Source: Flagellimonas chongwuensis
Lineage (GTDB): Bacteria > Bacteroidota > Bacteroidia > Flavobacteriales > Flavobacteriaceae
NCBI RefSeq assembly: GCF_013376415.1
Contig: NZ_WYET01000004.1
Location: forward strand, 372,001 to 436,000
Length of the DNA: 64,000 nucleotides
Reading direction: 5' to 3'
The notes beneath the pieces are model-generated. The model was not told the origin of the DNA, searched no databases, and saw only the letters and a list, made by a program, of their open reading frames with translations. This document shows, in pieces, positions 38,106 to 39,037 of the stretch. Within the stretch, counting starts at the first letter, position 1. Every line of letters starts with the position of its first letter. The position numbers and the translations under genes are program-made.

Positions 38106-39037
38106 TTTCTAATTGCTTTTAGCATTCTGTCGTTGCCAAACATATCTTTTCGCAGTTCAATTTCTGAAAAATTACGATGATTGAAAAGTGCTTGGGTCTC
38201 CTTTCCCAAATATTGATTGATTTCAAAATACAATTTTCCTTTTTCGGAAAGATGCTTTTCCGCGAAATCGATAATTACCCTGTAAAAAACTAAAGGGTCA
38301 TCATCTGGAACAAACAATGCAGTTCCGGGTTCAAAATCCTTTACATTTTTTTGAATTCCTCCCTTCTCCAACTCTCTGACATAAGGCGGATTAGAAACGA
38401 TGATATCAAAATCAAGTTCAAGTTCCGTGTTAAGAATATCTTCATGCAAAAATGTGATATCCACTCCATTTGACACTGCATTTTTCTGAGCCACATCCAA
38501 TGCGCCATCGGACACATCCAAAGCAAACACTTTGGCATTGAGCAGGTGCTTTGCTAAAGCAATGGAGATACAGCCGCTTCCTGTTCCAATGTCCAAGACG
38601 CTAAAAGGTAAAGGATGAAAAGATTCATCTTCGCTACATGGGGCTTCAGCCTTCAATTCTGGGTTTCCCACTTGCAACTTCTGACTTCCGACATCTGACT
38701 TCTGACTTCTAATATCATCCAAAATCCATTGCACCAATTCTTCGGTCTCAGGACGGGGAATCAACACATTTTCATCTACGTAAAGCTCCAAATCCATAAA
38801 ATGGGCAGTTCCCAAAATATATTGAAGGGGTTTTTCCAATTTGAGTTCGGACAGTGCTTCAAAAAGAGGCTGCTCTTCTTCCTTGGTCAATGCAATCCCA
38901 GGCTGAATGGCCAGAATGAATCGTTGCAGATTAAGGTAATGCTCAATACAGGAATAAAAAAAGGAATCAATCTCCTCTTTGGGATAGATTGTGCCCAACT
39001 CTTTATGGTAAATGTCTTTGATTTCTTTGAGGAGCAT
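38102..39037 (-). CDS. prmC: Release factor glutamine methyltransferase PrmC with a repeat-derived insert
   Basis: PrmC methylates the GGQ glutamine of release factors RF1 and RF2. The 311-residue protein has the N-terminal helical domain (about 1-95, including [16 protein letters not shown]), the SAM motif [19 protein letters not shown] and the catalytic NPPY ([16 protein letters not shown]). Between the two domains, where the family normally has only a short linker, lie about 30 extra residues ([19 protein letters not shown]...). They are encoded by the 7-bp repeat array at 38680-38707 plus flank. The frame stays open. Its start shares one base with the GNAT stop (TAATG). Confidence 0.95.
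38680..38707. repeat. Heptamer array inside prmC (4 units, in frame)
   Basis: TCTGACT, TCCGACA, TCTGACT, TCTGACT, then TCTAAT. It is the same unit, phase and right-hand end (TCTGACT-TCTA) as the intergenic arrays at 31502-31585 and 33549-33653. In prmC it encodes the [11 protein letters not shown] segment. Confidence 0.88.

Follow-up and report, generated by a model that had tools for sequence, protein, structure and literature searches.

One loop of the release factor methyltransferase PrmC hosts several unrelated repeat families in turn across the genus Flagellimonas/Allomuricauda, a stronger finding than that of the first-pass annotation, which had reported an intergenic heptamer repeat inserted in frame into a single prmC gene. 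That gene lies in the window, the whole stretch of 64,000 nucleotides of Flagellimonas chongwuensis that was analysed here (assembly GCF_013376415.1, contig NZ_WYET01000004.1, positions 372,001 to 436,000). It is proposed that the loop is probably a permissive site, where repeats of the spacer type land or grow, slippage trims them, and the forms that survive are in frame and free of stops. A core-gene loop that takes both heptamers and hairpins, with turnover between sister species, is apparently undescribed; in the open-access literature (most subscription papers lay outside the scope) no account of a PrmC with a heptamer or hairpin in frame was found.

The window gene is an open reading frame of 311 amino acids (38102..39037, minus strand) encoding release factor N5-glutamine methyltransferase, prmC. 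The protein belongs to the PrmC family by both the family model, NCBIfam TIGR03534 (232.3 bits against a cut-off of 199.1), and the fold, its best solved match being the Escherichia coli PrmC-RF1 complex (2b3t_A), with a TM score of 0.81 on the query. The end of prmC overlaps ligA (36105..38105, minus strand, from the open reading frames) by 4 nt, and ligA adjoins prmC in 57 of the 58 genus loci checked, the remaining one being a contig fragment. Among named species, the closest matches to this prmC belong to Flagellimonas, Allomuricauda and [Muricauda], in the Flavobacteriaceae.

Within this gene, repeat search and codon shuffles delimit a degenerate AGTCAGA heptamer array (38666..38710, minus strand) coding for 15 residues. 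Tandem Repeats Finder reports period 7 with 4.9 copies and 85% matches at 38677-38710, and three exact AGTCAGA units are present on the minus strand within 38680-38707. Period 7 is the strongest lag in prmC among lags 3-21, and its best self-match is 17, while 2000 codon shuffles reach a maximum of 12, which rules out chance repetition as the source of the array. Where 0.27 matches to the pattern TCTGACTTCTGACT (up to two mismatches) would be expected in the window, 22 were found, and prmC holds three of these. The prmC frame is open through the array, so the in-frame AGTCAGA repeat that had been described is confirmed. The linker DNA of the window, GATGATATTAGAAGTCAGAAGTCAGATGTCGGAAGTCAGAAGTTGCAAGTGGG, codes for an 18-residue stretch. 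As to the size of the insert, put earlier at about 30 residues, the loop does exceed the common short form by about 28 residues, yet the part that resembles heptamer-derived sequence is only about 15 residues long (R110-G124). The remainder of the lengthened linker is other sequence, ending in a weak, decayed heptamer-like stretch of the CCTTTACC type (38600..38620, minus strand, coding for FHPLPFS), which by a loose pattern, weak in the window, resembles the CCTTCAC units of the relatives.

The structure alignment, the predicted model and the linker lengths place the lengthened linker at I109-F145 (38603..38713, minus strand), between a helix (residues 96-118) and a strand (146-150). It had been described as lying between the two domains of the protein; by alignment and model it is instead inside the methyltransferase fold, between the helix that comes after an 11-residue stretch and beta strand 1. 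In HMMER alignments against solved structures, window residues 111 and 146 align with residues 119 and 124 of Thermotoga maritima HemK, and 107 and 144 with 104 and 110 of E. coli PrmC; both solved proteins have a turn of about 4-5 residues at this place. From these anchor residues, about 35 window residues replace 4-5 in the solved PrmC/HemK. The predicted model, built with 30 sequences, has a mean pLDDT of 88.8 and contains the helix 96-118 and the strand 146-150, with residues 120-141 as the sole stretch with pLDDT below 50. The loop would presumably lie away from the active site.

The two spacer arrays that had been reported with TCTGACT on the plus strand are present in the window, as seen by repeat and pattern search on the minus strand: one of AGTCAGA, AGGTCGG and similar units (31502..31588) and one of 15 AGTCAGA copies (33549..33656). 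Each has a second array on its 3' side on the same strand, found by repeat search, of TTAACCA units (31324..31372, minus) and of AACCCTC/AACCCTT units (33239..33311, minus), respectively, and between both arrays of the latter spacer a pattern search located two hairpin half-elements, GAGCGNAGYCGA (33403..33441). In the complete window genome, G000 (3.77 Mb, 13 contigs), there are 38 overlapping AGTCAGA matches, hand-grouped into nine arrays, eight of them outside prmC: the window arrays at 31.5k, 33.5k and prmC, one on contig C1 (529k), four on C2 (295k, 298.0k, 298.15k and 308k) and one on C5 (60k). AGTCAGA thus occurs as tandem 7-bp units in many spacers, as an intergenic heptamer direct repeat family does. 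The genome-wide search for such arrays inside genes, which had been suggested as a check, returned the prmC array alone within an identified gene; the frames covering the eight others are of at most 139 codons. The TCTA edge that had been taken as shared is real in both spacer arrays, in prmC and at C1:529k; it amounts to a change from TCTG to TCTA and is not preserved in the prmC genes of relatives, which excludes it as evidence of copying. AGTCAGA and CCTTCAC-type arrays lying near each other are on the same strand in 10 of 15 pairs, seven of these from the window genome, with AGTCAGA first in all 10. A fixed strand order, apparently perfect in a first set read by eye, was rejected on the larger set, in which 5 of the 15 pairs are on opposite strands, one of them in the window genome. 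In G060 (L288:3206-3775), CCTTCAC-type units and a hairpin alternate six times in a tandem series, with a spacing of about 101 bp for most copies.

The comparison of linkers covered 69 prmC loci from 68 of 71 genomes of the genus, G003 and G006 having been dropped because they gave partial matches and G041 because it gave none, as were the loci L032 (a weak match, not prmC), L173 (partial) and L203 (second copy of L174). The outside set started from 80 named loci; after removal of seven without a parsed linker (L096, L112, L117, L130, L141, L142, L143) and of 11 belonging to the genus (L066-L075, L077), 62 remained. Counted from the end of an 11-residue stretch, the window linker has 42 residues, the common short form being 13-15. 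Linkers range from 13 to 46 residues in the genus, with at least 20 in 48 of the 69 loci, and from 10 to 31 outside, with 15 or fewer in 49 of the 62. Eight of the 62 outside loops have at least 20 residues, seven of them without a period-7 signal, so that loop length is variable regardless of repeats. Period-7 linkers, called in the genus when the score was matched by at most one of 500 shuffles, were found in 21 of 69 genus loci versus one of 62 outside, and a half hairpin like GAGCGGAGTCGAA (up to two mismatches) in 35 of 69 versus one of 62, both features occurring together in two genus loci. The full hairpin in the prmC loop is DAERSRSVISTPLNDRS or near it; the prmC genes of L045 and L184 have a GC-rich variant of the hairpin loop, which G017 also carries (L299), at a place that no frame of 100 codons covers. 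The heptamer units in the loop, read by eye, differ by clade (TCAGAAG, TCAGAAA/TCAGACA, CACCAAA). Close to the loop end, a loose CCTTCAC-type pattern was found in 12 loci, after a heptamer array in 11 and after the hairpin in L053, while L055 and L183 have a heptamer array together with a hairpin in the loop.

The array of the window gene is lineage-specific, and its sister in G010 (L036) lacks it, having a hairpin in the same loop instead. Nor do distant orthologues carry the same insert, which had been named as the result that would speak for a chance resemblance: the sole outside locus with a significant period-7 linker, L134, has a different heptamer, TGTCAAC. A conserved insert of flavobacterial PrmC is ruled out by the same comparison of 69 genus with 62 outside loci. 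L134 comes from a Bacteroidales MAG and carries a perfect TGTCAAC array of five units (L134:2180-2217) in the same prmC loop, which fits a loop that is permissive in general. Elsewhere in the protein, the PrmC of G068 and G024 (L201, L203) have a second low-complexity expansion, of the PELALELVLAPELALGPELALEL type, immediately before a 10-residue stretch.

The orientation of the heptamers in prmC agrees with where stop codons would fall. AGTCAGA is open in all three frames, each coding for the cyclic peptide SQKSEVR, whereas TCTGACT runs into TGA; having just one open strand is a property of 5,992 of the 16,384 possible heptamers. Among the 21 prmC genes with an array, 20 have more copies of the TCRGA core than of its reverse on the sense strand, and L189 has equal numbers; the array of L150 is made of another unit.

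The history of the linker was followed on a tree from which the linker itself was excluded, built from the rest of prmC and a portion of ligA (77 rows, eight of them outside the genus; L172 lacks ligA). Its topology calls for no fewer than 12 switches of the heptamer state and 13 of the long-hairpin state. With support 100/99, the window gene (L031) pairs with L036 of G010 as its sister, the two being 88% identical across the tree columns; G010 has eight AGTCAGA dimer matches elsewhere in its genome, yet a hairpin in prmC. L183, with array and hairpin, belongs to the same five-row clade as the window gene. A single clade of the 14 AGTCAGA-type rows is rejected (p-AU 2e-64), as is a grouping of the window gene with L183 (p 3e-5), both groups having been picked after the tree was known. 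Among 10 aligned pairs, which were picked by hand, five show a net difference of 21 nt. In L033/L034, L060/L160 and L060/L201 it fits three heptamers, the fewest units that preserve the frame; L045/L185 differ by one clean GC-rich block of 21 nt, and in L038/L040 the gap is split and a heptamer origin is not clear. In the remaining five pairs, blocks are replaced or missing, with net differences of 3 to 60 nt. Under parsimony, gains and losses are indistinguishable for the linker states and for the pair differences.

For the hairpin, prmC is not a unique host, and several core genes carry one. With up to one mismatch, CTGAGCGGAGTCGAAG has 21 copies in the window genome and the control pattern none; of 18 copies checked for frame, one is in ArgD and 17 have no covering frame of more than 139 codons, so that the hairpin is a palindrome dispersed in spacers. 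Of 70 genomes, 23 have the strict 24-nt hairpin; every one of its 27 copies is in frame, 19 of them in prmC, seven in LeuS and one in ArgD. With one mismatch allowed, 53 distinct places were examined, 17 of them outside any frame of 100 codons, and this adds a second LeuS site, more ArgD copies, and Mfd-like and methylmalonyl-CoA-mutase-like genes. The hosts of in-frame hairpins include an ArgD-like transaminase with the peptide DTERSRSV (L196:628-1776, at G000:C2:869k; L212, L238, L239) and a leucyl-tRNA synthetase with two hairpins (L277, named by NCBIfam; L251, L267, L270, L249 and L254, by similarity), one ahead of IEVFTTRPDTIF and the other in the C-terminal part. The peptide ERSRS is encoded by the hairpin in Mfd-like genes (L271, with its best NCBIfam hit below cut-off; L279 and L255, by similarity) and in a gene like that of the methylmalonyl-CoA mutase small subunit (L256, best hit below cut-off). 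In NCBIfam, LeuS scores above its cut-off, whereas the ArgD, Mfd and mutase models are best hits below theirs, that of Mfd resting on a cut fragment. Two solved ArgD homologues have a 7-residue gap at the hairpin site; in solved LeuS the first site is unaligned and the second aligns loosely, with little gap. As an in-frame insert that solved homologues lack, the hairpin thus occurs in conserved genes that are unrelated to one another. The peptide DAERSRSVISTPLNDRSLQI had a match in 18 of 60 genomes, in all 18 at prmC.

The reading proposed here is that PrmC in this genus is permissive in one loop of its methyltransferase fold, the one that joins the first helix to beta strand 1. Repeats of the kind found in spacers (AGTCAGA- and CCTTCAC-type heptamers, the ERSRS-coding hairpin and its GC-rich variant) may enter this loop, later to be lengthened, shortened or replaced. 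Surviving inserts would be those that keep the frame in a stop-free orientation. A spacer may have supplied the heptamers, through copying or template switching, slippage could produce the 21-nt steps, and the inserts would be near-neutral for the enzyme. Of the earlier interpretation, which also took the array to be mobile or copyable, one part is borne out: a core gene carries the array in frame, and the sister species is without it. For movement of the array as a unit, no donor and no target duplication were seen. The comparisons made identified no heptamer donor copy, target duplication or mobility gene; by eye, the nearest comparisons showed no target-site duplication, and the array edges vary among relatives. 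Copying from spacers and growth in place are both kept as readings. It is possible, at a lower probability, that a short seed in the loop grew by replication slippage without any copying from spacers, the likeness to spacer arrays being a genome-wide preference of slippage for such units. Two units were compared between prmC and the spacers of the same genome in 11 genomes. With 38, G000 leads the 11 in AGTCAGA matches and carries that unit in prmC, so that here the prmC unit fits its own spacers, which speaks against growth in place, as does the array-then-CCTTCAC order of 11 loci, the same as in 10 of the 15 spacer pairs. In G037, by contrast, the only two AGTCAGA dimers of the genome (up to one mismatch) are both in prmC, making this its sole AGTCAGA array by the pattern used. 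The prmC units of G046 and G033 are likewise unlike those of their spacers: in G046, with AACACCA in prmC, the AACACCA dimer has 10 matches (the control pattern has four), of which prmC accounts for two, and G033 has 47 although its prmC carries another unit. Growth in place would also suit the units that vary by clade, the TGTCAAC units of L134 at the same loop and the net 21-nt steps among relatives.

It is doubtful that a composite of heptamer array, hairpin and CCTTCAC array entered the ancestor of the main clade and that deletions left differing remains. The loci with array and hairpin (L055, L183), with hairpin and CCTTCAC (L053) and with array and CCTTCAC (11 loci) do keep a consistent order, which the window spacers share; but no locus was classed with all three parts, other heptamers or full hairpins occur outside the main clade (L150, L156, L189, L146, L148, L188), and L045/L185 show a recent gain or loss of 21 nt. 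Rather unlikely as well is a true recurrent landing site, where arrays, hairpins and GC-rich variants would be copied from a composite spacer element by a process acting on single-stranded or slipped DNA; were it true, a core gene would record the repeat traffic of a whole genus. Interspecies recombination, by which prmC segments would have shuffled linkers with no new insertion, seems improbable. In the 90 nt before the window linker, identity is slightly higher to L183 (93%) than to L036, the sister (89%), and for the left part taken as a whole L035 is the closest (88%; L036, 86%). These differences, however, amount to a few bases; on the other side of the linker, L036 is the closest in the adjoining 90 nt, in the right part of prmC as a whole and in ligA, and recombination would leave the origin of the repeats unexplained. 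A function of the insert, such as the binding of a protein or a linker length under selection, would agree with the preserved frame and with loops of at least 20 residues in 48 of the 69 genus loci, yet is most improbable for a stretch that shows free variation in both sequence and length (13 to 46 residues), which has low confidence in the model and in place of which sisters carry unrelated inserts.

Returning to the permissive loop, by its arrangement the system appears to resemble Rickettsia palindromic elements (RPEs) together with heptamer microsatellites. RPEs are described as in-frame palindromes in conserved Rickettsia genes, an insert in one tested enzyme having altered substrate affinity and been judged neutral or slightly harmful (PMC2229807, PMC10969869). 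As with RPEs, a dispersed palindrome is found here in frame in conserved unrelated proteins (PrmC, LeuS at two sites, ArgD, Mfd-like, mutase-like). Unlike them, the hairpin has a core of about 24 bp versus 105-146 bp, belongs to another phylum, and at prmC shares its site with heptamer arrays, which are non-palindromic. A case of coding palindromes is reportedly on record for Wolbachia as well. If Rickettsia-type coding palindromes are indeed what is seen, they extend to a free-living marine genus and to aminoacyl-tRNA synthetase, repair-like and amino-acid genes. TAACTGA direct repeats are known from Beggiatoaceae, Cyanobacteria and five Bacteroidetes, with other heptamer arrays in spacers of Gramella and Aequorivita-type genomes (A. 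sublithincola) and with intragenic sets mostly toward protein ends (PMC4679880). The present arrays share with those repeats a 7-bp unit, a mainly intergenic location and stops on one strand only, but here one defined loop of a core enzyme holds them, and they differ between sister species; membership in the TAACTGA family is ruled out by the window unit, AGTCAGA. Heptamer arrays in general are given as plentiful in spacers and scarcer within genes (PMC4679880, PMC4692102), and the GGGAATC/GGGGATT heptamers of Xanthomonas and Nostoc as over-represented in spacers, with an intragenic minority (PMC4692102). Like the latter, the arrays here differ in length and sequence among close relatives; the GGGAATC/GGGGATT units are G-rich and quadruplex-forming, and a single recurrent gene is not described in the portion of PMC4692102 at hand. 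Some REP palindromes lie wholly within ORFs (PMC3733652); the hairpin is similar in being a small palindrome found partly in ORFs, while the REP families are GTAG/CGTC-tagged. Because spacers change fast, the origin and spread of heptamer arrays are hard to study there, and prmC, being conserved and alignable on either side of the loop and holding different repeats in sister species, offers before-and-after pairs. As a caution, when an annotated protein has a linker of this kind, it may consist of repeat remnants.

In eight array loci taken from the matches listed, no heptamers were found internal to other long genes; two long frames with internal stops (G039, G051) were left out of this check. 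Four of the eight (L175, L176, L177, L178) have frames of more than 300 codons whose likely start codon comes after the array, and the other four have frames of 84 to 156 codons. The genes downstream of the arrays in L175-L178 are presumably SufD-like and FolD-like. In L177 and L178, from two species, the array is directly upstream of the start of the same, presumably FolD-like, gene with the frame open into it, and is possibly an N-terminal extension or leader. Also in the window, a 75-nt repeat of 3.4 copies (34185-34442) lies inside the gene at 33738-35237.
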